64,000 nucleotides of DNA from Haliclystus octoradiatus (taxonomy: Eukaryota; Cnidaria; Staurozoa; Stauromedusae; Haliclystidae), in assembly GCA_916610825.1 (NCBI GenBank), contig OU744448.1, positions 22,795,032 through 22,859,031 on the forward strand. The letters run 5' to 3'. Below the pieces are notes generated by a model. The model did not search any database. It saw nothing but the letters and a program-made list of their open reading frames with translations, and was not told the DNA's origin. Of the stretch, positions 3,119 to 57,300 are shown piece by piece (position 1 is the stretch's first letter; every line of letters begins with the position of its first letter). A program made the position numbers and the translations under genes.

Positions 3119-3159
3119 TAAGTTTTTATTTTATTTAAAAAAATAGCTCCGCTACGCTC

Positions 3160-3432: not shown

Positions 3433-3439
3433 AACGTTA

Positions 3440-3510
3440 TGCAGACCGAAGGGATTGAACTGAAGACCCCGCACGCCTAATGCAAACGCTTCACCACTAG
3501 ACCATACCAA
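3440..3510 (-). tRNA. tRNA-Pro-like sequence, probably pseudogene or SINE head
   Basis: Read on the minus strand it has an A box like TGGTCTAGTGG and a B box like AGTTCAATCCC at normal spacing. The anticodon arm folds (TTGCA against TGCGG) with a seven-base loop TTAGGCG, whose anticodon AGG would specify proline. The T stem does not pair properly and no clean acceptor stem is visible. A TTTT pol III terminator follows within ten bases. It is therefore a degenerate tRNA gene or the head of a tRNA-derived SINE, not a confident functional tRNA. Confidence 0.4.
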
Positions 3511-3726
3511 GATGAAGTGATGTAGTGATTTTCACTACTTATAATACAGGTGTGAGTTGTAAATGACGTGCGAAATTGTCTCTTCTTAAGGTGATGTCGC
3601 AGCAGAATTAAAACATTTTATTAAACCAAATAAAACCATGACGCCTGGCTTAGCAGTTTGATGTAATAAATAACTTCAGAAAACAATACAAACAATAAAT
3701 ATATAATACTGTCTTGTCTAAGCCCC

Positions 3727-3931
3727 TGTAGTAGGCATATCAATAACGACAGAACGATTCATGTTATTCTGTTTATTGATATCTGTAAAAATATATAACT
3801 GCCTCTTAGCTTAAGCTTACATCGACTGACCTCAATCAACTTGGTCAGCTATAATTACATTATATGTGTTAATTAATTGTTATACGAGGCTAATGTACTA
3901 ATATGGAAACGAGGCTGTTTCCAGCACTACA
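3727..3931 (-). repeat. 3' LTR of the CsRn1-like element
   Basis: 205 bp, terminal TGTAGT/ACTACA inverted hexamers, apparently identical to 8361-8565. The sequence just inside it is only weakly purine-rich, so the polypurine tract is not obvious. Confidence 0.95.
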
Positions 3932-4083
3932 TGTGTCCGCCCAACAAAGACGGAGTCATAATCAACTTCGTTATGAATTATATGTTTGTAAAATAGAATA
4001 AAAGTACATCATTAACACTAAGGCATTGTAAAAAGTATAACATTTTATTTTAGTAAGAAAGAATCGATGTTTATCAATTAAAG

Positions 4084-7000: not shown

Positions 7001-7401
7001 GTTGATTCTAAAGACACTTGACACGAGCGCAGTGGGGTCGAAATAGACGTGTGCGTGTCGGTCAAAGTACTATCAGAACAATTTAATAAAATTTGGTGGC
7101 GAGAAAGAAAATCTATACCCAATATTGGCTGTGTTACATCAGCGATGACAAATTCATGTTGGAAACGACGATGTAATTTTGGAAGACTGATTTCAGTTCT
7201 CAATTCACCGAAAACAGAAATACTTTTACCAGAAGCAGAAATGAGTGACAATATTGAGGATGACACTGGGAGTTTACTTTGTTTGACGATAGACGTGGGT
7301 ACAAGTGAAACAGCCGAACCAGTATCAATTAAAAATGCCATAGAAGGTAAAAACGGAACATTACCGGTAATAAATAACAAAGAACCACGTTGAGAATTCA
7401 C
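4084..7401 (-). pseudogene. pol: Pol polyprotein (PR-RT-RH-IN) with one in-frame stop
   Basis: This is one reading frame with a single TAA at 5830-5832. Before the stop are an aspartic protease (LIDTGSAVSLVP), reverse transcriptase with the catalytic box FAYIDD at 6403-6420 and the start of RNase H (TTDASGHAIGAVL). After it come the rest of RNase H, the integrase zinc finger (H-x3-H, C-x2-C in CEAC), the integrase core with aspartates in LDIV and ITDRG and glutamate in GLVERMH, and a C-terminal GPY/F-type module (GPYEVLKR). No other stop lies between 5829 and 4084. The frame enters from upstream of 7401, where it overlaps gag in the -1 frame. The products would copy the element RNA and insert the cDNA. 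The stop inside RNase H should prevent a full-length product unless it is suppressed or a sequencing error. Confidence 0.9.
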
Positions 7402-7415
7402 ACCCCCAACGTGGC

Positions 7416-8396
7416 TTAACGGTTTTCCGGAACCGGAGAAGTAGAACGTGACTGTGCTGGAGAATTTCGAGTGGTACGAGTAGAAACGTGACTGGGTTTA
7501 GTAGCAGGCCATTGACACCACGCTTTGCATGATCTTGCGTCGCCAGCGTAAAAAATGTGAGCACGACAAATTTGTGGAGGTTGGTTTTGGTGAAAAGCCT
7601 TTACAACATACAATTCATTAGAGTTATTATTGAAATTGTTAGAATTAGAATAATTGGGTTTGCTATTAGTGCGACGGTTAACATTACTAACTTCAATAGC
7701 AGATTCATCAGATGTACTAGCTATAACCTGAACTGAGGGAATAGAATCTACTTTAGTAGCACCCCAAACGGTATCAGCAATCGTCAAGAATTGGTCGGAA
7801 GGCAAATGTAAATGTCCTAAGAGAAGATCACGGACCTTAGTGGGCAGAGCATTCATTAGGCGGTGATGAACCAGGTTTTCATGGGCAGGGATACCAGACA
7901 TTGAAAAGGCTTTCTTAATTTTTAAAGCACAAACACTTGGTTTAAGACCGTCAAGAGATACCTCACCTAATGCTTCCTCAAGGCGTTGTTGTTCAGTCTT
8001 CTGAAAAAGTTGTATTGTTTTTATCTTGATATCAGTATAGGGCGTAGCAGAGGCAAACAGTTCCGGTGTGACTACCAAATGTCCAATGTCTGATGGTAAT
8101 TCAGCTACGATGTATTGGAATCTTGTTAGTTCTTTTATAATCCTTCGTATTCCAAATAAACACTCCACTTGGTAAAACCAAAATACAATTTGTAATCGAT
8201 GAAATGGCGGTAGCTTAATAGTTGCTGTGGAAATTCCAGCAGACGAAATGCGGTCGTCATCTTGAAACGTTTGTATTGGGCGAGGCAGAGGAGTCGACGT
8301 AGTAGATATTGATGTATTCATATTGTGAGAAGGCAACGGGTTATTCTCGGGGTCACCATTTGTAGTAGGCATATCAATAACGACAGAACGATTCAT
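7416..8396 (-). CDS. gag: Gag-like protein of the CsRn1-like element
   Basis: This encodes the capsid/nucleocapsid polyprotein that packages element RNA into cytoplasmic particles. The frame has 326 residues from an ATG at 8394-8396 inside the LTR; ATGs at 8370-8372 (still in the LTR) and 8319-8321 (internal) are also possible, and the last is the more conventional start. Residues from about 60 hold the capsid-like region beginning with LPPF and containing VRDLLLG. Near the C-terminus C-x2-H-x9-C-x3-C (CRAHIFYAGDARSCKAWC) fits the unusual CHCC motif described for CsRn1 Gag instead of a CCHC knuckle. The frame is uninterrupted. Pol lies in the -1 frame relative to gag and overlaps its end, which suggests programmed -1 frameshifting. 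Confidence 0.85.
   Translation of the reverse strand: MNRSVVIDMPTTNGDPENNPLPSHNMNTSISTTSTPLPRPIQTFQDDDRISSAGISTATIKLPPFHRLQIVFWFYQVECLFGIRRIIKELTRFQYIVAELPSDIGHLVVTPELFASATPYTDIKIKTIQLFQKTEQQRLEEALGEVSLDGLKPSVCALKIKKAFSMSGIPAHENLVHHRLMNALPTKVRDLLLGHLHLPSDQFLTIADTVWGATKVDSIPSVQVIASTSDESAIEVSNVNRRTNSKPNYSNSNNFNNNSNELYVVKAFHQNQPPQICRAHIFYAGDARSCKAWCQWPATKPSHVSTRTTRNSPAQSRSTSPVPENR
8347..8358 (-). promoter_or_regulatory. Primer-binding site, tRNA-Trp type
   Basis: On the minus strand TGGTGACCCCGA lies two bases after the 5' LTR. It is complementary to the 3' end TCGGGGTCACCA that I recall for animal tRNA-Trp. CsRn1-clade elements are known for tRNA-Trp priming, which agrees with the protein features. 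The gag frame reads straight through this site. Confidence 0.7.
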
Positions 8397-8565
8397 GTTA
8401 TTCTGTTTATTGATATCTGTAAAAATATATAACTGCCTCTTAGCTTAAGCTTACATCGACTGACCTCAATCAACTTGGTCAGCTATAATTACATTATATG
8501 TGTTAATTAATTGTTATACGAGGCTAATGTACTAATATGGAAACGAGGCTGTTTCCAGCACTACA
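8361..8565 (-). repeat. 5' LTR of the CsRn1-like element
   Basis: 205 bp, same sequence and ends as 3727-3931. The gag reading frame is already open in the last part of this LTR. Confidence 0.95.
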
Positions 8566-9150
8566 CCCCCAACCAAATGATGAATTGTCGGTTCAAAAGT
8601 TCTCATGGTCAAAACACAACAATAATTATCTTCGAAGTTTCACCTAAAATAGTGATGTTACAGAACGATTAAAATCTTTCATTAACCATTTCAAATGACG
8701 AGAAGAAGAAAACAATCATGTGTTCTACCAATGAAGAGATAATCACGATGTAAACTAATCCAGGAGTATTAGAAAAATTTCATTTAAAAATGTAATTGTA
8801 ATCTCGCTAAGCTGTGAGTCGGCCATCATGGCGGGCAATGGAAAAAAATTTTTGTCAAAAAAATTTGGCTAAAAATTTGGAATAATCACACAGCATGCCC
8901 ATTGTAATTTTAACAATAAAATGGTGTTTCTTGCGCAATCGTTTTTTGTTCATCCTTTGTTAGCACGCAAAGCAGTGTGTTGAACGTTATTTCAAAAGAA
9001 CAATAGATTTAGCCAAAAATGAAATGAAATGAAATGAAAACGTTTCCACCATGACAGTATAGACTCAAGGTCACTTACGTAACCATGAGTCAAAAAAGTT
9101 GTTGTGCATGTATGTCTAGCTATCAAGCGTTTTGGTATTAGGACCAAATC
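8566..9150. other. Gene-free flank of the gypsy element
   Basis: No gene is seen. A short (ATGAA)n microsatellite, four units, lies near 9020-9038. Nothing else is recognised. Confidence 0.5.
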
Positions 9151-9198
9151 AATAAGTGTCCCTTGCCAATGATTGGCTGACGCCTATTGTGCCAATAT

Positions 9199-9574
9199 CC
9201 CCGGGGGTAACTCCAAGTGCCGCATTGACGGGGGGGGGGTGCCACTTTGGAAAAATGTGAAGTACCCGAAAAGTCCCAAAAATCCTTCAAAAGCTACCCA
9301 AATAGTTATAAAAAGTCGTGAAAACGCTACCCCAAAAGTGCAGAGAGGGTACTTCCAGATATAGGCTCTATGCGGGGATGTTCCATTTTTATTGGTAAAA
9401 ATTCAAATCCAGTTTTCAGTTTTCAGCCTTCAAATTCTCTAGAAAATCGAAATGGGACCCAAAACGTTTGATATTGTAAAATTTCCTACCCAAAAACTAT
9501 ATTTCTCAGCTGGAATATAGACCCAAAAAAAGTGGCACGTCCCCGTAGAGCAAGAGTATGGGAGTTACCCCCGG
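9199..9574. mobile_element. MITE, G-rich TIR family, copy 1
   Basis: A 376-bp element with terminal inverted repeats CCGGGGGTAACTCC / GGAGTTACCCCCGG and 8-bp target duplication GCCAATAT (9191-9198 and 9575-9582). Copy B (13208-14278) has GCCAATAT once at the same place. The interior repeats TACCC(A)n-type motifs and encodes nothing. The 8-bp duplication fits hAT-type mobilisation, but the terminal sequence is not one I recognise. Related copies are at 49273, 62317 and about 62840. Confidence 0.85.
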
Positions 9575-9761
9575 GCCAATATCGTATTATTATCATGCAT
9601 GAAATATGTAATAACCTGGCAGTTGCTGTGAGAACCGGTCGAGAGTGTAGATGGTTTTGAATGAACAACATCTCCCTCGTTGCTTTAATCGTATTCTTTT
9701 ATCATTAGATGTTATATTTTATTCACTAAGTATATATACTCAATTAAAAGTCGTCCTACTT

Positions 9762-11299
9762 GATTTGATTTTTTGATTTGATTTATTTGTCATAAACAAT
9801 GACTGGCAAATACAGGGAGTATACCACTACAGTAACTTCACTTATATGCAACCATTTACAGAAGAAGAAAATTAAAATTAAAATAAAGCTATTGTAAATA
9901 CATCAGATGATGAGCAGTAATTACGATTATAGTTAAGGAAATAATTTACAATTAGAAGATAAATCTAATTTGTGCAGTGATGTCTGGAACCCATGGACTG
10001 TTTTAGAATTGACGACAGACTCTGATAAAGAATTCCACCAAGGGATCACTCTGTTAGAAAATATATGTTTGGAACTGTTCAACCTGCCTTTCTGCAGTGA
10101 ATACAGTTTAAATGAATGTCCACGCATGGAATATTTAGTTACAGCATATTTACAATTAATTGATGAAAGGGATAAATCTACTAGATTGTGTGTTATTTTG
10201 AACATCATTATCAAATCTGACTTCATGCGCCTTGATTCTAATGACTCGAGATTGAGGTGATGCAGACGGTCGTTGTAATTATTGAAAAATATATTAGCTG
10301 TTTTACAAACAAATCTTGTAAAATGACGTTGAACTTTCTCAAGAGCTTCTATGTCTTTTAGTGAACAAGGGTTCCATACGGGGGAACATGTTTCTAAAAT
10401 AGGTCGTACGTAAGTTGTAAATGAGTTGACAAGCAGATGCGGATCTCTCGATGTATAACTTTTCATAATCAAATATGAACGAGAATATGCCTTTGATGAT
10501 AACATGGAACACTGGACAGAAGACTTGAGATCACCAGTAATAATAACACCAAGGTCTTTTATCTTGTTAACAATTGGCAGAGTACATTGGTTTAGTTTGT
10601 ATATGTGTTGGAATTGATTATTTGATTTGTTCGTTGTGAAAACTGAACACTTTTCATAGGCGATCTTAAGTTGCCATTTTGTTGACCATTCGCAAAGATT
10701 TTGTAACGTTTTTGTGAGATTTTCACTGGATGATTCATTTTTACCGGTACAGCAGAATTTTGCATCGTCAGCGAATAATTTTACCTTGCATTCGTCTTCA
10801 AGGCATGTGGCAATGTCATTTATAAATAAAATAAAAAGTAACGGCCCTAGTACGGAACCTTGTGGCACGCCACTGAGAACTTCAGAAGAATTTGATTTGG
10901 AACTCCCAACAGATACACATTGCGTACGACCAGTGAGAAACGATGATATCCATGTAAGTAATTCGAAGTCTATTCCATAGCTTTTCAACCTAATTAATAA
11001 TTTTTTGTGACAGACCGTATCGAAAGCTTTGCTGAAGTCTATATAAACCGCATCGATTTTTAAATAACTATTGATTGCTGCACTCCATTCTTGTAAAGTG
11101 TCTAATAATTGGATCGTAGTAGATCTGCGGGCAACAAAACCATATTGTTCCTTAGAAATAATATTGTTCGCTAATAAATGATTACGCATCTGTAAATTGA
11201 TGACGGATTCCATAACTTTACATGTAACACAAGTGAGGGAAATAGGGCGATAGTTTTGCTTCATAGAAGACTTGCCTTTTTTGAAAATCGGTACAACTG
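9762..11299 (-). mobile_element. 5'-truncated CR1/Jockey-like LINE
   Basis: A minus-strand LINE carries only the 3' part of ORF2. Its 3' tail is AAATCAAATC-type DNA at about 9762-9790, typical of LINEs that end in short repeats instead of poly(A). Its 5' break at 11299 is exact, because copy B has unbroken flanking DNA at this point. No clear target duplication is visible. Confidence 0.85.
9933..11297 (-). pseudogene. Reverse transcriptase, C-terminal part of LINE ORF2
   Basis: About 455 residues of non-LTR reverse transcriptase without an internal stop. Visible motifs in order: VPIFKKGK, NYRPISL, YGFVARRST, IDFSKAFDTV, SGVPQGSVLGPLLF, and the catalytic box FADDAKF. A thumb region and the LINE C-terminal segment follow (YVRPILE, LESLESRR). 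The endonuclease and ORF1 are missing. The in-frame ATG at 11322-11324 and the first eight residues come from flanking host DNA, not from the LINE. CR1 or Jockey clade is suggested by the motif wording; the exact clade is uncertain. The truncated protein cannot support its own retrotransposition. Confidence 0.85.
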
Positions 11300-12150
11300 T
11301 TGACGTATGTGTAATTACTTTCATAATATAATTTATTGAAGGTAACTTTTCTAATACGGCATATCATATTGATTAGATGGTGTCGACGTCAAATTATTAT
11401 TACAAGAATACTATATTATAAGTATTATAAGCACTAGTAATAAATACATTGATGTAGGTCTTACGATCGACCAATGCCTTAAATTACATTACTTCAAATT
11501 CTTTAGATAAATTAAGACAATGATATTTATATGGGTGGCTTCGTCTCAAAATATATACATGGCGGGGTGTCTTTCACTATATGCAAATCTTTAATCGAGT
11601 GAATTGTTAGATTTATATAGGTACTCTTCTTCATTATAAAAAGCTATTGTATTTGTGCCTTCTTACGCGACTTAAATCAAAATTGACTTATTTCGACCCA
11701 TTTGAACGTTTATGAGTTGTTAGTTCATCTCGGTTGCTGTAAAAGCAGAAAAACAGGTAAGAATCGAACCTATAATTACGTAATTAACTCTCTACATGCC
11801 TGTAATGGAGATTTCTCGTATAGTCCATATATTGTACTAATTAGCAGTAATCTAGTCCAAAATCATCCGATCTTTGTTTGATTGGTCAATGTTTAAAGCA
11901 GTTTATTTTTCAAGTTTCAAATCCTGAGAGCAATTTACGTTTGAAGTATCATTATTGGGATGTGGACTAAATGTTTGTTATGTAATCTTCACTCGTTAAC
12001 CCATTTAACCTTCCCAGCCTCTTTTGTTCCAATTTTCAATATTCAGTTTGAACGCAACTCGATCTTTCACAACAACTCAAGCTCGAGTCTATATATAAAT
12101 AAATATGAAAAAGATCACAGAAAAGTGATCTTCACACTGCCAATATCTGG

Positions 12151-24324: not shown

Positions 24325-27300
24325 TCACTTGGCTTCTTCGAGTATACATAATTTCGTAATTGGTCGTACCAGGGTTGAATTTTCAGTCTGAACCTTAACA
24401 GATCTGACTTTGCCATCTTGACCAGGGTAAGCATCGATGACTCTGCCAAGTCTCCACACACTTCTTGGTAGCATCTCATCAGTAAGAAGGACGAGGTCGT
24501 TGGTGTTGATGTTGCGATGTGGTTGACACCATTTTTGACGTTGTTGGAGAGTTGGAAGATATTCTTTCTTCCATCGCTGCCAGAATAGATCAGCCAGGTA
24601 CTGCGTCTGTCTCCATCGGCGTCGGACGTAGTTGTCTGAGTTGTCGTACATGCCAGTTGGTAGATTTGGTGATGGTCGTTGAAGTAAAAGATGATTTGGC
24701 GTGAGTGCCTCGTAGTCGTTAATATTATCTGATGATGCTATGATAGGACGACTATTCAGAATGGCTTCAACTTCAGTTAAGAAGGTATATAATCTGTTGC
24801 CTTGCAGATGACGATTTCCTAAGGATCCAATAACTGCTATGAGTGCCTTGCGCACACTCCTGATGAGGCGTTCCCAAACACCACTCATGTGACTGGCCTT
24901 CGGTGGTTGAAAGTGCCAGTTGATTTTTTGCTGCGACAGATGTTTAGTGATTTTTGATTGGTTTAACTCAGATAGTGCTTCCTTCAATTCTTTTCTTCCT
25001 GATGTAAAGTTGCTTCCATTGTCACTCCAAATGTCGCCTGGCTGCCCCCTTCTATTGATAAATCTTCTCAATGTGTCAATAAAATCGTTTGTGTCTGGGG
25101 AATCCGCTAGTTCTAGATGCACTGCCCTAGAAGATAAGCAAGTAAATATGCATCCCCATTTTTTTTTCTGTTTTTCTTCCGTGTTTGACTAAGATTGGAC
25201 CAAAGTAATCCAGTCCAGTATTATGGAATGGAGGGACATCATCTTGTAGTCTTGCTGAAGGTAGATTTGACATAATTTGTCTGGCGGGTGTTGCATTATA
25301 TCTGCGGCAATCAATGCAGTTCCTTACAAGTTTTTTCGATGTTGACCTTGCACCTAGTATCCAATACATTTGTCTTGACTCTGCTAAAATATGCTGATAG
25401 CCAGCGTGACCAGATTTGATGTGATGATATTGAAGAATTAATTTAGATATGTGATGTTCTTTTGGCAATATGACTGGATGTCTTGCTGCAAAACTTAAAG
25501 GTGCGTGAAACAGTCTCCCCCCAACGCACAATGTATCTTCCTTCAAAAATGGTTGTAGGTTTAATAATTTGCTGTTTTTTGATAATTGTTTCTTGTTTTG
25601 TAGAGTATTAATTTCTTTTTTGAAGTGTTGTAGTTGGATATATTTAACAATAGATAATTCTGATTTCTTTAATTCTTCATGGGTTGGCAGAGTAGTTACA
25701 CATTCTTGCTTGTTATTCAAGTATTGAAAATATCTTTTAAGCCATGTTGTCTGCCATATTAACTTCTTCAAGCTTGATGATGAATTTAAGAACCTTTCGG
25801 TTGGACTTTCAATGTCTCCTGTTGCATTAACTATGATTGCAGGTGTTTTAATTTCCACGTCGTCCTTTAGGTCTGTGTCGATCTTAGGTTTTATAGGCCA
25901 AGTTGATTTTTCTTGACTTAAAATTCCGGTCCATGAAACCAAAGTGAATTTTTTGTTAAATGTTCTGGTGTCGTACCTCTTGATGCTACGTCTGCTGGAT
26001 TTTCCTTTGTATTGATATATTGCCATTGTTCAATGTCTGATTTTTCTCTTATTTCTGTAATTCTTGTAGCGACATACGTACGAAATCTTCGAGATTCACA
26101 ATTGATATATTTGATTACTGTTGTTGAATCTGTCCAAAATGTAGTATTTGATATCTTCAAACCAATTTCATTTTGTAGTAATTCATTAACCCTGACTGAC
26201 ATGGTTGCTGTTTGTAGTTCTAGTCTAGGTATCGTCATAGGCTTTATTGGAGCCAACTTGGTCTTGCTCATGATGAAATTAGAATTTATTTTTCCCTTTG
26301 TATCAACTGAACGTAAGTATGATACTGTTGCACAGGCGTATTCTGAAGCATCCGAGAAGTGGTGTATTTCTAGTTCTGTTGAACCTGATAACTTTATTAG
26401 GCGAGGAATTGTTATTCTTTCAGCATGTTCCATGTCATTTATCCAAGATTGCCATAATTTTTATTCAATTCCAGGTACAACGTCATCCCAATCCAAGCAT
26501 AGTTTCCATAACCTTTGTACCATTAGCTTGGCTGGTAGAAGAAGAGGTGTGGCAATACCCAATGGGTCATACATTGAGCTGATACAACCAAGCATTGCAC
26601 GTTTTGTTCTTGCATCAATGTTTCGATTAACCTTGAAACCGAAAGAGTCTTCTTTTACGTTCCAAATAACACCTAAAGCCCTTTCTGAATTATCATTGCT
26701 TTTGAGTAATTCAATTGCATTTGAAGCTAGTTCTGCACCTTCAATTGAGTCAACAACTTTAGTAGAATTGCTTATCCATTTAGTAAGCTTGAAACCCCCT
26801 CTAGCCAAAAGGCTTACCAATTCCGATATCAAATTTATTGCTGTGTGTTCATTTGGAACTGACTTCAATAGATTGTCGACGTAGAAATTTTTCAGAACCG
26901 TTTCAACAGCTTCAGAGGAATATTTTGATTTATTATCCGTTGCAGTACGATGTAAAGCATAGCATGCACAGCATGGAGAGTCTGTTGCACCAAATATGTG
27001 CACTTGCATGGCATAGTCCTTAGGGGGGTGGTTGAATTCATTTTCCCACCATAAAAATCTCAATGATTGGGTGTCTTCATATCTAACATTTACTTGATGG
27101 AACATCTGTTTAACGTCTCCCAGGATAGCTACTTTCTCATGGCGAAATCTTGTTAGGACACCCAATAGTGCATTATTTAAATCAGGACCATGCAGAAGCT
27201 GATTGTTAAGTGATATTCCGTCATGCTTTGCGGCTGCATCGAACACTACTCGGATCTTCTTTTTGTTGGGATTGACAACTGCGTGATGAGGTAAGTACCA

Positions 27301-29088
27301 GATTTTTGATGATTTGAAATTCAGTTCTTCTTGAGATAATTTTTTGGCATGGCCAGACAATAGGTAGCCATTCAAAGCTTCTTTATAGGATTTATGAAAT
27401 TCTGGGTTTCTAACAAATCGTTTACGCAAACTTAGCAGTCTGTTCAAGGCTAATTGTCTGTTATTTGGTAATTTTATATTTTGATTACGCCACAGTAATC
27501 CGGTTTCATAATGCCCTTCAGTTAATTTGCATGTTGCGTTGAGTGTTTCTACAGCTCTTTTGTCCTCTATTGAGGGTTCCACCTTTTCCCTTATGCCTTG
27601 ACTGTCAATCTTCCAAAACTTCTCTAGTGTCTGATTTAGATTATCATCAGCTTCATTGATACTATTGACTGTGAGTCCCGTTCCTTCCCCGCCGCCTTTA
27701 CCAATCAAGCACCACCCAAGACATGTTTTAACGGCAATTGGTTCGTTTTTATTTCCCTTCCGATGGTGTAGCTGAATTAAAACTTCGGGGACGTCAACTC
27801 CTATTATTAATTGCACAGGCTTGTTTTCTACTAGCGGAAATGTAATACCCTTTAAATGAGCGTAGTCTTCAGTCATTAATTGAGGTGCCTTTCCAGATGT
27901 AAAAACATTTAGTTCATTGATTACGATGACCTTTGGCAAGTCGATCCAGGGATTATTATTTTCGAATGAATTTGCCATCAATTTTACCTTCTCTACATCA
28001 TGCGTGATTTGCTTGCTATTAACAGTCGATATAGTGATTCTTTCTTTTGAACCTGTAAGTCCTAAAGAATCAGCTAATGATTTAGAGCATAAGGTAACAG
28101 AAGACCCAGTGTCTAATAAAGCGTTTGCTGTAACTTCTAAACCGGATTCAGATTTAATCTTGATCCCCACAGTCTGCACCATCGCGTGCTGTGAATTGTT
28201 TTTTGTTCTCATGGCAATAACTTCTCCAGCGGCTTCGTCTGTAGCTTGAACGTTAGCAATCTGTTGCGTAACTTGTGTTTGAGTAGTTGTTTCCTGCCTA
28301 TTGTTTGTTGCTTGTTGTGTATAGTTATGCAGTAAAGTGTGGTGACGTCCGTTACATTGTCTACAATTGATTTGGCTTTTACATATTCTTGCCGAGTGAT
28401 TTATTCCAAGACAGTTAAAACAGAGTTTATGATGTAGAACTAAATCACGCTTTCCATTGTAATTTTGTTTTGTGAATTGTTCACATTTATATACCTTGTG
28501 TTCGCCGTTACAAATATTACATTGATTCTGACTTTCTGTATTTATTGCGTTTGACTTTGCCTGTATTGTATTGAGTTCAATGTTGTTTTCTAATTGTTCT
28601 TCGTCGACGGCGCCTATTACCAAACTTTTCCCGAATGTTTTTTCTGTCTTCATGCTAGCCCTTCCAAAAACAGGATCATTAAGCGTTTCGGCTTCTGAAA
28701 CAACGAATTTTGCAATGTGATCTAGTGTAGGGTGAATTGATTTATTCTTAAGCTTTGTTGCCCTTGAAGCCCATTTATCTCTTAGAAATTGTGGTAACTT
28801 TTTTATTACTTGCTTCAACGTTATGTTAGCGTTCATGTCGGATTGATACTCAGTTTTTTGCAGTGTGTCTACACAATCTTGTAGTGCATACGAAAAATTC
28901 AAGATACCTTTAACATCATCATTACGGAATTGGGTTCCTGTTGTTATTTTTGTAATGAATGCATTTGAAATTTTATAACTATTTCCAAATCGTTTTTTGA
29001 GCAACCTTAATGCGCGTTCGTAACCGTCATTGATTCCCAAACAGTTTTGGATCACATCTTTCGCTTCTCCTGTACAACTATTTTGCAA
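24325..29088 (-). pseudogene. pol: BEL/Pao pol polyprotein, broken by a stop and two frameshifts
   Basis: The frame 26461-29088 contains the end of Gag with zinc knuckles, protease (ALLDTGSSVTLC, IIGVDVPEVL) and reverse transcriptase (RVVFDAAAKHDG, VAILGDVKQMFHQV). The catalytic box reads NFYVDN (26872-26889), not YVDD. A TAA at 26461-26463 interrupts it; the same frame goes on to 25918 with RNase H (FSDASEYACATVSY). A frameshift in a T run near 25925 leads to 25127-26026 with the integrase zinc finger (H-x-K-S-G-H, CIDC). A second frameshift in an A9 run near 25155-25165 leads to 24325-25122 with WSDNGSNF and GVWERL of the integrase core, then the DUF5641-like tail (VWRLGRVIDAYPGQDG). It would encode the replication enzymes but cannot be made as one protein as read. 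Confidence 0.9.
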
Positions 29089-32917: not shown

Positions 32918-35778
32918 TTACATAATTAAGAATTTAGATAGATTTTCATTGGAGAGATATATTTTGAATTTATAAACATTGGGTGCCTGACGTGTTTCCA
33001 GGCTTAAAGAGTTATATACATTTATGCATCTTACAAAAAAGGTTTGACGATGGCGATTTGAATGCGCCATTGGCACAACAAGTCGACCATGTGGAGTGAC
33101 AGTAATAAGGTTACTGGAGTCAATATCCACAAAACTATTAATAACTTTATAACAAAATAATAGGTCAGCAATCAATCTTCTACTTTCAAGTGTTTCGATA
33201 TTCAAATTAACGATGCGTTCTTTATAAATTAAATCATATTGATACAGCAGTGTTTTTGAAAATCATCGTTGCACAGATTCTAGCAATTTGATATCTTTTA
33301 TCAAAATTGGTGACCAGACCTCACTGGCATATTCAAGGATGGGACGCACATACGTCATAAATAGTTTGATTTTAAATGAACAATCTCTGCTATAAAATAC
33401 ACGATTAATCATTCTACTACGAATAGCTGCTTTTTTACAATTGTTGTTATATGTGTAGAAAAATTTAACGTTGATGTCATTAAAACACCTAGATCTCTGA
33501 TTTTATCAACAGATTCTAAATCTACTTCTCCAAGATGATAATTTTGCTTAGGATTATTTTTTCCCAAATGTAATACTTCGCATTTATGGCATGCCATTGT
33601 TAGCTGGTTATGAGTGGCCCACTGCAAGATGTTGTCTAAATCAGCTTGCAAGGCAATATGATCAGCACTTGAGTCACACGTAAAGAACAGCTTACAATCG
33701 TCTGCATATAATCTGATACTGCTGTGTTTTATTATATCAACAATGTCATTAATATATATCAAAAATAATACTGGCCCTAGTACAGAGCCTTGGGGTACAT
33801 CTGACTTTACGTCAGACCAGTTTGAATGGTTTCCATTGACAACGGTTCTTTGACGCCTGTTAGTGAGGAATGCTTCTATCCAGTCATACAATTTACCTTT
33901 AATGCCATGAGATTTTATTTTTTGCAGCAGTTTAGAATGTGAAACAGTGTCAAATGCTTTTGCACAATCTAAATAAATAACATCACCAGAATGCTGACGA
34001 TCGACAAGAGTAGACCATACATTAATTGTTTCTACTAATTGCGTCACAGTGGATCGCAGTGACATAAATCCATGTTGAAAACAAGATATTAATCCGTTAT
34101 CACGTAGATGATCGACAATCGCTTCTTTAATAATACGTTCCATTAGTCGACAAACATTTGATGTAAGGCTAATTGGTCTGTATAGAGTGAAATTTGTGCT
34201 TAGACTAGGTGTTTTAGAAATCGACATGATATCAGCAGATAGCCAATCCATCGGTAACTGTGACGTCTCAAATGAAACATTAAAAAGTACATATAGTGGA
34301 TAGCACAAATATTCTATATATCGCTTGATGAATACAGCTGGGATTAAGTCTGTTCCAGATGATAGCTTGGGCTGTAGTTTGATGACATTATATTTTATCT
34401 TGGCCAGGCTGAAATCAACAAACTCTAGGCTGGTTTTAACAACTTGAAGTGGTAATATTAAGGGTGTATTGTTGTCTTCTGTAAAAACAGAGACAAATCG
34501 ACTGTTTAATAAATGGGCAATGTCACTGTCAGTTTCAGCAATAATTGATCCTGGGCCATGAAGTGGTGGTATGCGTTGACGGTTACTGAATCGAGACTTG
34601 ACAAATGACCAGAAAGATTTAGAAGAGGAGAATTTAGAAATAAAACTGTTCTCTTTAGATCTCATATTATTTCGAATTAGTTTACGAAGTAAACCTTGCG
34701 ATTGCCTCCATATTGCTTTAGATTTAACATCACCAGTACTTTTATAAAGACGGTATAGTCTTCTGGTTTCTTTATTTTGAGCCTTGATTTTGGGTGACCA
34801 TGAATGCACGCGGCTTTGCTTAGTGAGAGGGATGAAGTTACTTAAAATGATAGTGTAGACAGCGATAAAGGCAGTCCAGAACTGGACAATGGTCGAACAA
34901 TGGAAAAATATTGTTGACCAATCGATATTCTCGAAAAATGTAGTAATTGAGGTGTGGTCAGTGAAATGAAAATTGTAAACTGAAGGTTCAACAGACGAAG
35001 TTCTGCTACATGGCAGTGAAGTTTCAATGTCCACAGAAGAATGGTCACTATTAGCAAACGGTGTATTTGTAGCTGCTTTTGTTACAATAGTTGAATCAGA
35101 TATAACTAAATCCAAAACATTTTCACCTCTTGTAGGCTGCAATACAAATTGTGATAAACCAGATGATAAAATAAAATATAAAAATTCTTTCTCTAGCGTA
35201 GTTGCATGTTTATGAGGAGAATAATCTGACCAGTTTATATTAGGAAAATTGAAGTCTCCCACAATCAATATACGACGATTAGTTAATAAATGAATGTTAA
35301 TAAATTTGAGAAGAGTTGCTAAGCAACCACCATTAGGTGGACGATATACATTGATAATAGTTAGCTCATAATGACAATTAATCTTCACAGTTACTGCTAC
35401 AGCTTCACATGCTGAATCACATAACGCAGAGGTTACTTTGGCAATATAAATAGACGGAACAAATATAAGAAGGCCACCACCTCGTTTTTCTTGTCGATCT
35501 TGACGAAATATATGATGAGATGTCCCTTGTAATTGTAAAGAGGCCGATGGAACGGAATCATCAAGCCATGTTTCAGTGCAACAAACTATTGTATTCGAAT
35601 AATCCGAAGACAACATAAAATTCAGTAAATCCAAGTGAGATTTTATAGATCTAGCATTGAAGTAGTGTATGGTGATCATAGATTTTGATTTTGATAATAC
35701 TGAACAATCAGTTTGGTCAACATTTTTATAATTAGGTTTAAAGAAGGAGAGTAATGATATCATTAATTTATTGTACAT
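32918..35778 (-). pseudogene. LINE ORF2: AP endonuclease and reverse transcriptase
   Basis: The ATG at 35778 opens a 789-residue frame. The endonuclease motifs in order are FNARSI, TETWLDD, KRGGGLLIF, NVYRPP, GDFNFPNINW and SDHSSVD, the usual APE-type set that nicks target DNA. Reverse transcriptase follows with YRPISL, LDCAKAFDTVSH, PQGSVLGPVLF and the catalytic box YADDCKLFF. The frame ends prematurely at 33409 because of an indel in a six-T run on the plus strand (33431-33436). The other frame continues through MTYVRPILEYASEVW, meets a TGA at 33263-33265, and ends at 32918 with LNIETLESRR and the LINE C-terminal region. The protein would perform target-primed reverse transcription in the nucleus. 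Confidence 0.9.
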
Positions 35779-46439: not shown

Positions 46440-46733
46440 CATTAATTTGAACTGTTACATGATTTACCTCACACTTATCAATATAAAATAGTTCAAATGT
46501 TGTTTTTATCAAGTTAAATTAATTTATCATGATCATTTATGCAGTGTATCTTCTTTCATCTTTTATCGTCAACAGTTTAAAGACCATAAAATGACCAGCA
46601 GCCTTTGCATATTTTTGTCTTTGAAATCTGGACCCAGATTTCAATCACTCGTTTTCATGATACACCCCCCGCCTTTGTGTCTCCTTTGCACACACACGCG
46701 ATTTTGCAAAAACATTTCGTAAAACGAACATTG

Positions 46734-47290
46734 GGGACTGCCTAAAAGGGTGACCGTGACCGGTCACGTATGTCTAAAAGGGTGACCGATCGTGACTTTT
46801 AGAAAAAGGCAAAAGAAGATAGAAATAAGACATTGGGCATAACAAACACAGCTTGGCCAATTTATATGGCTAAATGCAATCCAATTATTTACTTGTTAAA
46901 GAAATTTAAGAGTTGATTTTGTCGTGTTGAGTCAATAACAAACTGGGAATTTCTGATAGGCGTCTAAACCGATGACTAACCCACGCTGTGACGGGACAAT
47001 AGAAAGTATGCTTAGAAGTGACAAAGTTTCAAACTGCGAACGTTAAACTTCAATGTTCAACGTTCGCACCTTCTTCTAAAAAAGTCCAAAACGAGACGGT
47101 AGTCTTGACGGCGGGCTAAACTTCCATGTTCACACATCAAATTTCTAAAGTTCAACGTTCACACTTTTCTGCCTTGAAATTCACAACGAGGCACAGCAAC
47201 AAGGGAACGAGTTTATTCATAAAAATCATTAATGAATAAATATGATCGAAAGTGCTCTGCGAAATAAAAACAGCGAAAATAAAATAAAAT
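46734..47290. repeat. Left long terminal inverted repeat of the MULE-like element
   Basis: About 557 bp, reverse complement of 50785-51355 with only occasional differences (one extra GGTCAT unit on the right and a longer TTTTA run). Confidence 0.85.
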
Positions 47291-47437
47291 AGTTTCAGCT
47301 TCAAATAGTCTGTAAAATAAAAATACTTCGCATATCACTATCAGTAAAGTATCGAACAAGAACAAGTGCTGTACAGGTGCAACTTGAGGTTCATTCCCGC
47401 TTAAAATTTCTAAGAAATAATGAACTTTAAAATAAAC

Positions 47438-48048
47438 GTATTCGAAATTTGATAACAAAGTTAATTGGCAACAGATTTTTATTCGTCACTACGTTTCGAC
47501 TTAACATTACGTCCTCTTCAGGTGTATAAAAATGAATTTTTATTTTACAGCGTTATATTTATATGATTAAAAAAAACTTTTAACAATGTACATTACTATC
47601 AAGGGAAAATCTAAAAACAACTGAAATATAAACTTGCTTATTACCTATGCCCAACTAAAATAGAAAATTAAAAGACCTATTTAAATTAATTGTAAAGTTT
47701 GGATTTTACGGAATCCTTTTGTGTATTTAGCGATGGTTTTAGATCTCTTATGAAGAGCATTTCATGGATCAAACAGTCAAATTTGTTTTTGCATTTTCGT
47801 AAAATTGTAAATAGGTAATAAGCAAGTTTATATTTCAGTTGTTTTTAGATTTTCCCTTGATAGTAATGTACATTGTTAAAAGTTTTTTTTAATCATATAA
47901 ATATAACGCTGTAAAATAAAAATTCATTTTTATACACCTGAAGATGACGTAATGTTACGTCGAAACGTAGTGACGAATAAAAATCTGTTGCCAATTAACT
48001 TTGTTATCAAATGTGTAAGCCATCGGCTTCTTATAAGTATTCGAAATT
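47438..48048 (-). mobile_element. Penelope-like element remnant with inverted flanking repeats
   Basis: Direct repeats GTATTCGAAATT at 47438-47449 and 48037-48048 look like a 12-bp target duplication. Inside, arms of about 200 bp (47447-47655 and 47812-48012) are inverted copies of each other and surround a 130-bp coding remnant. Both arms contain CCTGAAGA, a GAC/GTC stem and CGAAACGTAGTGACGAATAA, which resembles the hammerhead-type core (CTGANGA ... GAAA) reported in Penelope-like elements. Inverted arms flanking a truncated body are common for this class. Confidence 0.65.
47686..47799 (-). pseudogene. C-terminal GIY-YIG region of a Penelope-like ORF
   Basis: The minus-strand frame reads DCLIHEMLFIRDLKPSLNTQ followed by KDSVKSKLYN and a TAA stop at 47686-47688. 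The E-x-L/I-x5-KPSLN-Q pattern is the end of the GIY-YIG endonuclease domain that closes Penelope-like polyproteins, with the glutamate as the metal-binding residue. Only about 38 codons remain; the reverse transcriptase is absent. Confidence 0.65.
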
Positions 48049-49272
48049 ATTTGAATGTTATTAAGTTTCTTCAGGAATGACGTCATGATTTTCTCGAGAA
48101 AGGGACAACCTTTCCCTACAGCGGTTTTTCTTCAAGTTTAAAAAATTAATACATGTGTGACATTGCGTGTATGTAGTTCCGACAGAGGTCTATATAGCAC
48201 TCCTTCCCCTCCTTCTAGTATCACTGGATTTCTGATAAAGAAACGTGCATGCTGGGCGTGTATATTTACCATTGAATTGTATATTGTAGATACAGTATAC
48301 CATTACTTTTGATAGTTCTTGAATAAGTGGAAATTACTCTAAGCGTCTACTATATATATATATGTATCCACGAATTTGAGTGCATGGACCGATCTGTTGA
48401 TTTAGCATGACTAATAAACTATAGGCAGTTATAAATTCTAATTGATAATTTCATGCATACAACTAATCTGAAATTTGAGCTTATACTAATCATTTTGAAA
48501 AAACTACAATAATTTAATTGAAAAAACACTAATTAAGATGTATTTATTGTATAAATGAAACAAAGATTAGCCAAGTTTTACCGTGACTCTGAGTTTCGCG
48601 CTTGTACGCTCTCAAGACGGAATTTATTCTAATGTAAAACATAACCAGTAACTCTGATTAGTATACATGTATGAAAAATTATATTATTGATTTACACTTA
48701 GCTATATTGTATTCAATGTATTTACTTTGTATTTGTTTCCTTAAAGTTTCGCAGGTAATATTTATTTTCGTGATGGCACTTCTAATTTATTGTATGATTA
48801 TGTATATACGGTAGTATAGTTCTAGATATCGGATTAAACTTTTAAAAAATACAAAGCATAATTCGGTATTTTGCCTACTAAAAACTGTTTAGTTAATGTT
48901 CTAAAGCTACGGCCACTCCACGACCCATCGTAGTAATATATTACTCCATCTTTGCTCAATACAGCTGTGAAATGCTTGCCTCAAAGAGGGCGTTGCTGTT
49001 TCTGGCTCGAAACTATTGCCACTAAATAACGTTAACGATTTGGGTAAATTCAGGATCGATGCTGGATCATTACAATTCAACTGGATAGGCAGGATCCATG
49101 CCTCCATGGATGATTTGCAGTAAAATAGCCATGAGTCTAATCCATTGGCAAATTGCAGTCTTTGCATGATGTAATTTTAAATCAGATTTCAAAGCATTCT
49201 CCATATCTTGCGAGGAACGACATCGTACATCGTCTGCTTCGACTGATATAGCGAATGTTAGATCCAATTCTC
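48049..49272. other. Interior of the MULE-like element, left part
   Basis: No transposase is found. Minus-strand frames at 48907-49167 (LDSWLFYCKSSMEAWILPIQ) and 49070-49260 (DLTFAISVEADDVRC) look like real but broken coding sequence of unknown family; the second continues across the MITE when the insertion is ignored. A TA microsatellite lies near 48350-48364. Confidence 0.35.
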
Positions 49273-49539
49273 GGGGGGGGGGGGGTAATTCCCACATGAC
49301 TGCTAGACGCTCCACTCTTTTTAGTTCCATATTCCAGCTGAGAAAATACTTCTTTGGGTATCGCTTTTCAAGTTTTTGAACTTTTGGGTATCCTATTTTT
49401 GACTTCTTCAAAATTTTTTGAAAATTTTTTGGGTATTATTTTAAAGTTTTGAAACTTTTTGGGTAGCATCAACAGACTTCACTTTTTTCCAAAGTGGTAC
49501 ACCCCGTTCCGACTAAAGAGCTGGAGTTACTCCCCTCCG
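49273..49539. mobile_element. MITE, G-rich TIR family, copy 4
   Basis: Left end is a run of 13 G then TAATTCCC; right end GGAGTTACTCCCCTCC. The interior has the family's GGGTAT and TTTTTGGGTA motifs and the CACTTT...CCAAAGTGG block. GATCCAAT/GATCCAAG near the two ends suggests an 8-bp duplication with one change. It lies inside the MULE-like element. Confidence 0.7.
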
Positions 49540-49620
49540 GATCCAAGTTCGAAGTGGAAGGACAGTCCCATATTTTAAAGCTAGAATTTTTCAGGGATAT
49601 AAAGATATCATTATATACTG

Positions 49621-49923
49621 ATGAGCCGTGCACTCTTCATACCGAATGGCAGGGGACCTACGGTAGATCAATGGATTATTTTCATAGCGAATAAGAAGAG
49701 TAATGTGACAGAAAAGGTAAATATTGAGTATACATTGTATCGCGACGGGAAAGGGATCACCGATGATGATGGTAAAGATTGTAGTTTAATTGCTTCAAGT
49801 AGTGAAGGGGTGTACCACTGCCGCGTCTCGTGCAGGGATTCAACTTTGGAATCATCGAAAGTAACAGTTAGTTCAAGGACAATGAGACGTGTTCTATGTG
49901 TTTTCTTTTTTTTAACGTTGTAA
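49621..49923 (+). CDS. Ig-like domain fragment, possible captured gene piece
   Basis: A frame of 100 residues has EKVNIEYTLYRDGKGI, then SSEGVYHCRVSC and SSKVTVS, the strand-C to strand-G pattern of an immunoglobulin-like domain with the YxC motif; a partner cysteine lies in GKDCSL. It ends in a hydrophobic stretch (RRVLCVFFFLTL) and a TAA. The preceding frame (49530-49690) overlaps in another phase, so the piece may be an exon or a damaged gene. It lies wholly inside the MULE-like element. Chance resemblance is possible. Confidence 0.35.
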   Translation: MSRALFIPNGRGPTVDQWIIFIANKKSNVTEKVNIEYTLYRDGKGITDDDGKDCSLIASSSEGVYHCRVSCRDSTLESSKVTVSSRTMRRVLCVFFFLTL

Positions 49924-50784
49924 TATATATTAAATAATTCTTATATTTGGTTCATATATCTATAAACATGTTACTGTAAATTATGTGTCTTTAAATTTGT
50001 TATTTTCAGCCTATACCATAGGGGGACAGGGGGACTATAACACCCCCATTCGAGGATACCCAGTCGTGGAAAGGCATACTTGAATTTAGGCACACTTGAT
50101 GGCATTGCCTGGTGCATATTTTTATTGAAAGTACAGTAAAATCAATAACTATCTTCAAAACTTCGCGATGTTTTGCATCGTTATATTCATCCTAAAATGG
50201 CTCAAATTTTGACTCAAAATATTTATTACGGGGCTATGACATCCCACAGCCTATTTTAAGAGAAGTACTCCCCGGGTACTGACGTACTGACAGCATAACA
50301 AGTAAGTCTACTACAGTGTCAGTTAAACGTAATTGTAACCGGGTAATCGGGTATACTCTTTATAATAAACCGTCTGAAGAGCGTATTTACGCGATCGTAT
50401 TTACTTATTACGTATTACGCGATTTACGTATTAAACTTGTGATCTTTGATCTATTAATTTATACTGGGAAGCATTTACACGGAATAACATAATTAAGTTG
50501 ATCATATCGTTCTTCAAATATCTATCCTGGAAAGTATATTTTTGTAAAATTATAGTGTTATTTATAAATCATTCTTATTCAAGTCCTGAATAAATGATGA
50601 TGATGATGATGATATTGCTCTGCTTTCAGCATTTTGATGTTTTGCCCATGCATTTTATTTACTAACAAATAAACATTCAATCGAGAATCAATCCTGAATG
50701 AATGAAATCAGCCACAGCTTTTAATTGAGATACATACATTTAATTTATCTGAAGCATACAGAGCACTTTCGCTGATACTTATTT
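49924..50784. other. Interior of the MULE-like element, right part
   Basis: No gene is recognised. A (GAT)n microsatellite lies at about 50594-50615. A stretch near 50010-50290 contains GGGGGAC and CCCC motifs and may be another MITE fragment, not resolved. Confidence 0.35.
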
Positions 50785-51355
50785 TATTTTATTTTATTTT
50801 CGCTGTTTTTATTTCGCAGAGCACTTTCGATCATGTTTATTCATTAATGATTTTTATGAATAAACTCGTTCCCTTGTTGCTGTGCCTCGTTGTGAATTTC
50901 AAGGCAAAAAAGTGTGAACGTTGAACTTTAGAAATTTGAGGTGTGAACGTTGAAGTTTAGCCCGCCGTCAAGACTACCGTCTCGTTTTTGACTTTTTTAG
51001 AAGAAGGTGCGAACGTTGAACATTGAAGTTTAACGTTCGCAGTTTGAAACTTTGTCACTTCTAAGCATACTTTCTATTGTCCCGTCACAGCGTGGGTTAG
51101 TCATCGGTTTAGACGCCTATCAGAAATTCCCAGTTTGTTATTGACTCAACACGACAAAATCAACTCTTAAATTTCTTTAACAAGTAAAGAATTGGATTGC
51201 ATTTAGCCATATAAATTGGCCAAGCTGTGTTTGTTATGCCCAATGTCTTATTTCTATCTTCTTTTTGCCTTTTTCTAAAAGTCACGATCGGTCACCCTTT
51301 TAGACATACGTGACCGGTCACGGTCATGGTCATGGTCACCCTTTTAGGCAGTCCC
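50785..51355. repeat. Right long terminal inverted repeat of the MULE-like element
   Basis: About 571 bp, the partner of 46734-47290. Confidence 0.85.
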
Positions 51356-52233
51356 CGAACATTGAAGCATTCTGCTAAGTTGTTTATCAACGAACTGGTT
51401 TGGAATTTTTGGAAAGTTGTAAGAGCAATAGAGGTGGACGTCGTAAGGGCTTTCGACGCTTGAATAAATATGTACCACGAAAATCAATTCACTTGCTACT
51501 AGCGTCATACAAATTGAGGAAGGAAGACAGAGTTGAAACATTGAAAGCTACAACTGAGCTCGACTGATTCAGAATTTCATGTTGGTGCTTACTTGATACA
51601 AGAATATTAGGGATTGAAAGAACGGGAAGAGATTTGTTAGCATTCAAAATCGAAATTTATCGCCGAAACAAAATGAAATTATTTATAACACCAGGTGAAT
51701 TCGATTTTTAATACAGATACTTTGTTTGATCATTGACTCCAAATTATGTTTGTAAACACGTCGGTTTCGTCTAAAAATAGTTAGTTACATGCCTATGTAT
51801 GTTTTATATTGCATTGTTTACCTGCAGTATTTATGCACGTAAATTGTAAAATTTAGAATCATACGAATTTATTTAGTGTTGATTTGAAAGTACATTTTTT
51901 CCAAGTTGTTTTGATTTGCGTCAAACTTCTCAGACAGATATTATCGGACTGTCACTCCCATTCTGCTATTTATTTTTGAGCCGTATACATTTGTTGGCTA
52001 TCTATAGCCATAGACTTTACGTTTCGACAAGTAAGAATTGAGATTTATCCAAAACTGAAATTGATAAACCAAACTATTTTCTCGAGCTTTCTGTCGTGTC
52101 TTTCCGTAACAACAGCCACGAGGACAACCCTCTGGGCAATGCGCTGACGTCACTCTCCAGAGTATTAGCCTCGTTTCTTGTAATCAAGACAACAAAACAA
52201 AGCAAAGGCTGCTGGTCATTCGAAACTCTTTAA

Positions 52234-54392: not shown

Positions 54393-57300
54393 CATAGGCG
54401 TAGGGGCATGCTTCCAACGGGGGGGGGGGGGGGCAGAAATAGTTTGCCCGAAAAATTTTCCTGGAAATTCCAAATCAAAATAATTTGTTTCCATGCAAAA
54501 CTTCAAACACGTTAATGGTACTTATAAGGTGGTATTCTATCGATGCGGTACTGAATTTTTGGTATTTTCTTATTACGGAATGGTAGTGATAGTAATATCG
54601 GTTAGTACTCTTATACTATTAGTACTATTATTGTATTCTGATGTGTCTTGGCAAGTATATTTCTAAGTATGAATAAACCGTCTAAAGAGCGCATTTAAGC
54701 GAAACTCAGATTAACGGACAAAACTCGTAATCTGTGGGTTAATATCATTATATGTATATATATATTGAGAACAGCAAATAATAATTACAAAAGTAATATA
54801 TTTTAAAATCCGAATTTTAAAGAAAATAGTCATCTCGTCCATTCCTTCTCCCAAATATATCAATAATATCATCCATACAATTTTCTGCAATGTCATTGGC
54901 AAAAGTTCTCTCTATATTGATCACAGCGACATTGTTCAATCTAACTTGTCCCATGGTACTTCTAAGATATGATTTTATTCTTCTGAGACTGCTGAATGAT
55001 CTTTCCGCTGTGCAAGATGTCGCAGGTATAGTTGCCAGTATTTGCGCAGCTTTGTAAAAAATTGGAAGTACAATATCTTGTCCAGTATCATACATATCTT
55101 GTACAATTTTTGAACCAGTAATCGGTTGATTACTGTTTTCATTTCCATCCATTAAAGCATAATTGGTATTGATATTTTTTTCTGAATTCAGAAGATCTCT
55201 ATCTAGACCGTAGTGGCTACAGACTGCGTCAAAAATTTTCTCCTGCGGCTCCTCGTTAAAAGTAACATCACCAAGGGAACATAGAATGTTTTGATCGTTG
55301 CTACTAAATCTTGATTCGAGCTCCGATACAGCACGAGACATACTTGGATAGAATGTTTCAATTCGATGGCAATCTTTTGGTGATTCATAGATCAAGGCAT
55401 CAGAGACAGAAGAAGACTCTCCAACCAATACTTGCGACCGTCGAGAAGGCTGTTTAGTCCTCGGCAATCTAGCAGCATTAACAGAAAACTCAGTGCCTTC
55501 AAGCTTTTCCATCATTATTGTAGTCAGATTTTCTGCAGTTTTCCATACAAGATCAAAAGAATCTTCTGTTCTACATTTTTTTAATGTCATTATGGTCGCG
55601 TCAGCTGTATTCTTGGCAGTGATGACATCTACCCTCTTCCCTTGCAGAAATTGGCTAAGGCTGCTTGTGTTTGATAAATAACTTTCAGGGTGATAAGGCC
55701 AATTACAAAATTAAAATCACTTATTGCCGTGAGCAAGCAACGACTTTCTGAATATATCTTGCTATCCTTGTCATTTGTCAGTACAAGCAGTGCTTGGATA
55801 ATGTTTGGCAGTTGCCCAAGTACTGCCCGGACTGCTTCCCATCTACATGTCCATCGTGTGACGCTCTGAGATTTTAGAGTGCAGCACAAAACTTGTCCCT
55901 CCATGCTTGTGCTGTTGAAGAGGGCGTGTCTCTTTGGGCTTGCCTCGAGGAAGTTATAAATTGTTTGCACTGTTCCTAGTGCATTTCTCAGTGGCTTGAT
56001 ATCAATTAAAACATCTTGGATTGCAAGATTAAGCAGATGCCCATAACAGTGAACATACACAGCTAAAGGCGAACTTTCCTTTAATCTTGTCGATAGGCCT
56101 TTGTGGATTCCACTCATGCTAGCTGCACCATCAAAGCACTTTCCTACTACATCTTTCATATCCAAGGACAATCTTATAAATACATCTTTAACAATTTTGT
56201 ACAACGTTTCACCCTCAGTTGAGGATGTACTGTAGAATCCAAGAAAAAATTCTTTTGTGTGGCCATTGAAGACATATCTCAAGCAAATTGATACCTGTTC
56301 TATTCTGCTTATGTCGGATGTTTCATCTACAATGATTGACGTTGATTTGCTATCTCTTGCTTCGCTAGAAATCTTTTTCACAACCAAATCGGCTATGATT
56401 TGGAGCAATTCATTCTGTATGTCAGGGGATGTCCATTGTGCATGCGCATTTAGTTGGGTCTTTAACTTTTGCGACAGCCATGAGGTGTCCTTACATCGCA
56501 AATGCAAAAGCTCTAAAAAATTCCCCCTATTAATATCCGATACATAGTCTAAATTTTCTCTCTCTTCTGCGTGACCTCTTTGTGCAATATTTTGCTGTGC
56601 TGTAAAGAGAAGACATTCAATTATGATCTTCAAATAACTTCGATTCTTAGCTACTTTCTCACGATGTGATTCATTTAGCTACTGCAAAATTGATGTTTTA
56701 TTTTTTTGCAATGACACATATCCCATCCATTTCGCCATTGCCAGCTGGTGATTTCTGCTTTTTGCGTGCTTCTTAAGTCGCTCAGGTTTCTTCCAGTTGT
56801 CATATTCAAACGAGTCATCCCCCATGAACTTTTTGCATGCAAAGTACTGAAATTTCTTGTTCTCGCTCTTATAGGTAAGCCAAGAATATAATCTGTACAA
56901 TTCATTGCTAAAATCTCTGGTATCAGTTTCTTTCGAATATATCTTTGGGTTATATTGGTTTTGCAATGGTTGAAACGGTGACGAAAAGTAATCATCTGAC
57001 TGTACAGTTTTAGTTTTAGCACTGTCATTAACTTGCGATACAAAACGATCTTTACTGGGATTAACATCGGAAGATGTATCCTCTTTGCAATTCATATCAT
57101 CGTCTGATTCACTGGTAGAAATATTTGATACTGAACCTTTCACATCTAGAAACAATATCACAGTTATATTATAGCACTTACTATTTTAATTGGGATAATG
57201 ATATTCAATGTTCCCTATATATATGTGCTGTAATACTTTGCTTAATAGATAGTGCTCAATGCTATGTAGCAGAGCGTGCCATAGTATTGAAAATAGTCAG

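Follow-up and report, generated by a model that had tools for sequence, protein, structure and literature searches.

Within a 64,000-nucleotide window of the Haliclystus octoradiatus genome (contig OU744448.1, positions 22,795,032 to 22,859,031), the segment 46734-51355 is a complete transposon insertion, bounded by long inverted repeats and a target duplication. It is one of at least 25 copies of a family that we call A. We consider it probable that A is a non-autonomous, foldback-type transposon, whose ancestor would have taken up part of a host gene with an immunoglobulin (Ig) domain; this gene would then have decayed, after which A spread. In all likelihood, the cargo derives by capture from a host gene family with an Ig domain and was already broken when A began to spread.

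When the region was compared with itself by blastn, the two arms paired over 542 bp at 98.5% identity (46751-47291 versus 50785-51326), and an additional 23-bp terminal match extends them to 46734 and 51355. A perfect 9-bp duplication of the target lies directly outside. Long terminal inverted repeats with such a duplication had been proposed in the preliminary description of this DNA, and both are borne out. The boundaries of the element are as follows.

46725-46733, no strand: left target-site duplication, CGAACATTG, 9 bp (sequence read and measured)
46734-47291, plus strand: left terminal inverted repeat, starting GGGACTGCCTAAAAGGGTGACC (self-blastn, copy comparison, motif scan)
50785-51355, minus strand: right terminal inverted repeat (self-blastn, copy comparison, motif scan)
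51356-51364, no strand: right target-site duplication, CGAACATTG, 9 bp (sequence read and measured)

Duplications were counted in elements with both ends (at most one mismatch) inside one scanned locus, namely 18 members of family A and three of a second subfamily, B. All 21 have a perfect duplication, 9 bp long in 12 and 8 bp in nine, and for this reason it cannot be put down to chance. Outside the count stand the A copies L022, L030, L036/L037, L040, L057, L059 and L061, as well as two loci discussed below, L053 and L054. A 22-bp end motif, allowing up to two mismatches, has 68 matches in the 262-Mb genome (36 forward, 32 reverse), compared to none for the reversed control; a looser version (one free position, up to three mismatches) gives 75 matches versus one. 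The arms make up a large share of a family A element (2 × ~560 bp of ~4,000 bp), as in foldback elements. Short pairs of the same or a similar end motif, 337-658 bp in length and possibly miniature versions, occur at C2:47446-48103, C1:6137997-6138436, C4:5186961-5187297 and C1:39318427-39319049.

The 25 family A copies (24 besides that of the window) lie on eight contigs, and the same elements are recovered whether the query is the left arm, the interior or the Ig region. An incomplete 26th copy lies at C6:27086124-27086856. Copy counts are lower bounds, as the genome searches score best candidates only, and some copies are incomplete or cut off by the edge of the fetched stretch. Across 300 pairs, the median substitution distance is 1.4% (0.0139) in the interior and 1.2-1.4% in the arms. 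Given this low divergence, the burst of family A looks recent. Apart from indels and nested inserts, one interior is common to all 25 copies, of which 22 are unbroken and three have a ~125-bp insert. Family A is thus not a set of elements with different cargo, which is what the preliminary description had suggested looking for. It had also named a single interior in all copies as evidence against its reading. That applies in part, namely to the window's subfamily with its 25 copies.

Inside the arms, the window copy is a composite of related-element sequence, gene fragments and later insertions:

47438-48048, no strand: nested insertion, window copy only (self-blastn, copy comparison)
48065-48554, plus strand: interior region 1, first part; 77-78% identical to diverged relatives at C10:9.12 Mb and C1:19.53 Mb, in part also to C10:14.728 Mb
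48548-48781, no strand: dispersed repeat that sits within family A and has copies of 85-92% identity at other places in the genome
48814-49220, plus strand: interior region 1, second part; 82-84% identical at C1:19530081-19530454 and C10:14729265-14730584
49233-49267, plus strand: first piece of the putative captured gene; ~30 bp align with the subfamily B frame
49268-49539, no strand: insertion splitting the putative captured gene; 7-bp repeats GATCCAA at both sides, related repeats elsewhere
49540-50075, plus strand: second piece of the putative captured gene, with its 3' flank; frameshifted, lacks ~220 bp at about 49701 and contains the open frame 49621-49923

The Ig-like frame 49621-49923 had been reported as a coding piece. 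An open frame does exist there, but in the window and in its sister copies it carries a frameshift and an internal deletion. The deletion lies near 49701, and the ~27 residues ahead of it depart from the ancestral frame; the remainder corresponds to the second half of an Ig domain, making the whole a hybrid. The Pfam match is to Ig_2 (E 3.3e-4, 21.3 bits, under the curated 27-bit cut-off), obtained with the frame of copy L031 rather than the window's own; a typed composite of the frame gives the same score. In all 25 A copies a ~220-bp deletion has removed a stretch that includes the start of the Ig domain, and the sequence preceding it is frameshifted. The ~220 bp are kept in L051, L052 and L053 and mostly in L054, while L055 has a deletion of its own. 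We rejected loss of an intron (a processed copy) as the source of this gap: in the relatives the extra stretch reads on as protein, by eye, and we therefore take the gap to be a deletion in A.

Subfamily B consists of three copies, L051, L052 and L055. Its ends share ~91.5-97% identity with those of A, and its arms approach 1 kb (paired segments over ~980 bp, 87-99% complementary with small gaps). In L051, an element of 3,283 bp, the paired segments fall within 3015-3996 and 5142-6297 of the locus, again a foldback layout. Little lies between the B arms except the gene piece, which is one open frame of 202 residues in two copies and 168 residues in the third, the latter with its own deletion. 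L054 is an older relative whose arm pieces are 90-92% similar to B's, and more of the gene's 5' part survives in it than in B. B departs from L054 at the joint between arm and gene, where two L054 matches overlap by 5 bp. L054 has ~3.6 kb extra at this joint, holding by eye a reverse transcriptase frame of LINE (long interspersed nuclear element) type; with the insert at the joint, the 5-bp overlap may instead be a duplication that the insert made. L053 carries the gene but does not match the arms; 9 kb of sequence there show no long inverted pair, and end motifs are absent for 1.8 Mb around. It was considered as an autonomous relative and rejected: transposase-like frames beside its Ig piece have no Pfam match at E 0.1, and a long terminal inverted pair is missing from those 9 kb.

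The ratio of non-synonymous to synonymous change (dN/dS) is 0.19 for B versus L054 over 84 codons, with nine synonymous and seven non-synonymous differences. For B versus L053 it is 0.40 (78 codons) and for L054 versus L053 0.39 (54 codons). Within B there are five differences and no sign of constraint (L051-L052, one synonymous and three non-synonymous; L051-L055, one and none). We think it very improbable that B still holds a working gene, its 202-residue frame or a longer version in the L054 lineage being kept by selection inside the transposon; the element would then be a vehicle that disperses a host Ig-domain gene, and A its decayed, mass-produced relative.

A further related element, of 11.4 kb with diverged ends, lies at C10:9114787-9126201. 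It has B-like arm pieces at 9117530 and 9125033 and region 1 inside, and no match to the Ig gene was found in its interior, beyond the arms. This interior, of ~7 kb, makes it a candidate for an autonomous form or for one with other cargo. Differing interiors in A, B, L054 and this element, together with the short pairs of the same end motif, speak for a true Pack-MULE system (MULE, Mutator-like element), where a variety of host genes would travel between the same kind of ends. We regard such a system as decidedly improbable here, given the single interior of the 25 A copies and the fact that, in the elements that were read, no gene-like piece other than this same gene was found.

Homologues of the gene were found on C10, C5, C7 and C15 with the B frame as query. 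They comprise a tandem cluster of ~10 kb (C10:14734767-14744563), a frame broken by a single stop (C5:18217119-18217691), three uninterrupted frames, 243-276 residues long, within 9 kb (C7:15770476-15779415) and a further homologue at C15:258697. The tblastn scores are 59.3 bits (C5) and 41.6 bits (C7); with 50 shuffles per case, the highest scores were 24.3 and 21.9. A motif resembling W..A(Y/F)......Y.....YYPL is common, by eye, to the C5 and C7 homologues and the element frame. In the scan with 75 matches, no end motif lies within 1 Mb of the C5, C7, C15 or C10 homologues; the nearest is 1.12 Mb away, and there is none on C15. The locus at C10:14.73 Mb holds the gene and region 1, that is, both interior parts of A. 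The C10:14.74-Mb sequence was examined as an intact parent and rejected, the 1,201 bases read (L063) being rearranged and full of stops. Homologues with no ends nearby favor a host gene family as the source but do not prove it, the nearest forms being degenerate or distant.

Gene sequence that is not the transposon's own stands between the ends in A, B and L054, and we infer its host origin. Several observations weigh against this reading. The Ig_2 match of the A frame stays below the Pfam cut-off, and the gene pieces of B, L053, L054 and C5 matched no Pfam family. Constraint is not seen within B. No intact parental gene of high identity was found: the homologues that were read are distant or degenerate (L063, L053), the C10 cluster being degenerate in the 1.2 kb read of its ~10 kb, the C5 frame having a stop, and protein identity to C5 and C7 reaching only ~30-34%. 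An autonomous partner was likewise not found, as described below. Finally, the gene could have belonged to the ancestral autonomous element.

This last point amounts to an explanation in its own right, in which the Ig-type gene is an accessory gene original to an autonomous ancestor and the C5, C7 and C15 paralogues are domesticated or old relics. The presence of the gene in A, B and L054 speaks for it, as do L053, with its gene lacking arms or a nearby end motif, the joining of gene and region 1 at C10:14.73 Mb, and the low dN/dS of B versus L054. However, the related element at C10:9114787-9126201 has region 1 but no match to the Ig gene beyond its arms, and the three open frames that C7 offers in 9 kb have no end motif closer than 4 Mb. 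On balance, an accessory gene seems unlikely to us, and we favor capture from the host.

A history of the family by host-gene capture would run as follows. The ends (~560 bp in A, ~1 kb in B) would be recognized by a transposase made elsewhere, mobilization in trans yielding the 8- and 9-bp duplications. The ancestor would have acquired, probably in a single event and in the direction from host to element, part of a host gene belonging to a multi-copy family with a C-terminal Ig domain. In B this gene would then have been truncated; in A it would have suffered deletion, frameshifting and the insertion of other repeats. One A master copy would then have spread to about 25 places, and the window copy would later have gained its private nested insertion.

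That insertion (47438-48048), unseen in the other 24 A copies, consists of 202-bp inverted arms at 99% identity (47447-47648 and 47811-48012) and a short unique tail, and is bounded by a 12-bp duplication, GTATTCGAAATT, at 47438-47449 and 48037-48048. A CTGAAGA...GAAAC motif in the 202-bp arms is reminiscent of the hammerhead-like motif of Penelope-like elements; an Rfam search of 46500-51500 gave no match up to E 1.

Frames of at least 75 residues were listed for 20 fetched loci. No transposase domain appeared among the interior frames given to Pfam, consistent with the earlier statement that the element has no transposase inside. A broken coding stretch had also been described on the minus strand at 48907-49260. 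The frame is open in parts in the window copy, and over its final ~30 bases it runs antisense to the putative captured plus-strand gene. In diverged copies, region 48814-49220 has six protein matches on the plus strand, 55-74% identical and four of them with stops, and six on the minus strand, 48-67% identical, of which three have stops and three are open over 46-65 residues. On either strand, identity is lower at the protein than at the DNA level, and by this comparison, made with no formal test, neither strand is clearly conserved as protein. In nearly all other matched A copies, the window's 89-residue minus frame breaks at about residue 70. We therefore could not uphold a coding stretch, and take 48907-49260 to be probably non-coding interior, which the older relatives (C1:19.53 Mb, C10:9.12 Mb) have as well. 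Mild evidence against this comes from the three minus-strand matches that are open.

One MULE-domain protein, used as a query, has 80 matches in the genome, of which a single one lies within 25 kb of any of the 75 end-motif matches, in a nested insertion of L040; no autonomous partner for these ends was found with this query. Two copies came into question as autonomous forms and were rejected. In L039 (the C8 copy), a PF20700 transposase sits in a separate element nested in the arm (L039:3694-6632), with ends GGTCACTCTCTAGTCTAA and TTAA at both sides; its 616-residue frame matches PF20700, "Mutator-like transposase", at E 5.3e-82. TTAA is typical of Kolobok, so that the PF20700 name may mislead for this element. 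In L040 (C10:16079000), a 1,435-residue frame at L040:1-2115 has ZSWIM1-3 RNaseH-like, MULE and SWIM domains and a PHD match below cut-off. It belongs to an insertion, estimated at ~10.8 kb, inside one arm; a second copy of the frame, at C5:28421582, has no end motif nearer than 54 kb. The two are identical over the 333-residue query and are likely a recent MULE-type element of another family.

The superfamily was considered separately from the origin of the cargo. MULEs have target duplications of 8-11 bp and, in the set of one survey, arms of 14-500 bp (PMC6446971); Merlin elements have 8- or 9-bp duplications, GG ends and arms of 24-462 bp (PMC8101967). The duplications seen here (9 bp in 12 of 21, 8 bp in nine) fit Mutator-like elements and Merlin alike and so do not discriminate between them. 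The mixture of 8 and 9 bp and the ends starting GG are shared with Merlin, from which the family differs in its longer arms, ~560 bp in A to ~980 bp in B (PMC8101967). Arm length decides poorly between the two, however, because the range in the MULE survey is similar (PMC6446971) and the arms exceed both. Foldback elements are reported to be Mutator members for the most part (PMC4079207). Membership in Merlin rather than Mutator is a possibility that we consider less likely than not. The label "MULE" given earlier is accordingly not sustained, with duplications and GG ends that are also given for Merlin (PMC8101967) and no transposase linked to the ends.

The surrounding window is rich in mobile elements (4084-11324, 24325-29088, 33409-35778 and 54817-56633). 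Their frames comprise integrase and reverse transcriptase, a BEL/Pao type, a LINE type with endonuclease and reverse transcriptase, and a hAT type (Dimer_Tnp_hAT, DUF4371), the elements being named in part from the domains. BEL/Pao retrotransposons are typical of animals. Elsewhere, frames resembling MORN-type repeats by eye adjoin the A copy at C2:411 kb (L038:4785-5510).

Family A and its relatives are a real, new family of a known kind, whose superfamily is unproved; searches of open-licence papers on gene-carrying or Mutator-like animal elements and on Merlin-like duplications did not show it. Multicopy gene-carrying transposons with terminal inverted repeats (TIRs) are rarely documented in animals (PMC8277862). 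With 28 copies in two subfamilies and an older relative that has a longer gene piece, the order of capture, truncation, decay and burst becomes readable from the sequence. The family is also a warning that Ig-like frames which recur in this genome may be cargo of transposons, not genes. The preliminary description called the Pack-MULE-like layout not commonly described in animals. A published survey of 100 animal reference genomes found 370 Pack-TIRs and reported four multicopy cases in frogs and alligators, and the multicopy Ssk-FB4 is also on record, so that part needs qualifying; no Pack-MULE was found in the 100 genomes, and to that extent the statement stands (PMC8277862). The layout itself is partly confirmed: a long-ended element carries a piece of a gene family also found without ends, but the window's subfamily has a single shared interior.

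Comparison with known systems places the family among foldback elements with cargo. Like Tetris and other foldback elements, it is non-autonomous, with long composite arms, duplications in the 8-10-bp range, a short end-sharing relative and no transposase found (PMC4079207). The arms of Tetris, in contrast, hold ~220-bp tandem repeats, and the available part of that paper does not mention a captured gene (PMC4079207). Plant Pack-MULEs likewise have gene sequence between ends and target duplications (PMC8277862), but here there is one cargo in one family, of unproved superfamily. By analogy, the element may have worked like a Pack-MULE, with a gene captured once, decaying and then spreading. 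The closest known case is Ssk-FB4, a Drosophila foldback element FB4 with the Snakeskin gene, which has been argued to be a Pack-MULE (PMC8277862). Its gene is nearly complete, has a known parent and is argued to give a functional protein family (PMC8277862), whereas the gene described here is broken in every one of the 25 A copies, with no close parent found. Different cargo among copies is not required of multicopy cases such as Ssk-FB4. The two share long arms (~700 bp in Ssk-FB4), duplications of similar length (9-10 bp there) and a transposase that in Ssk-FB4, too, is unknown, and both consist of several copies of one captured gene with different target duplications (PMC8277862).

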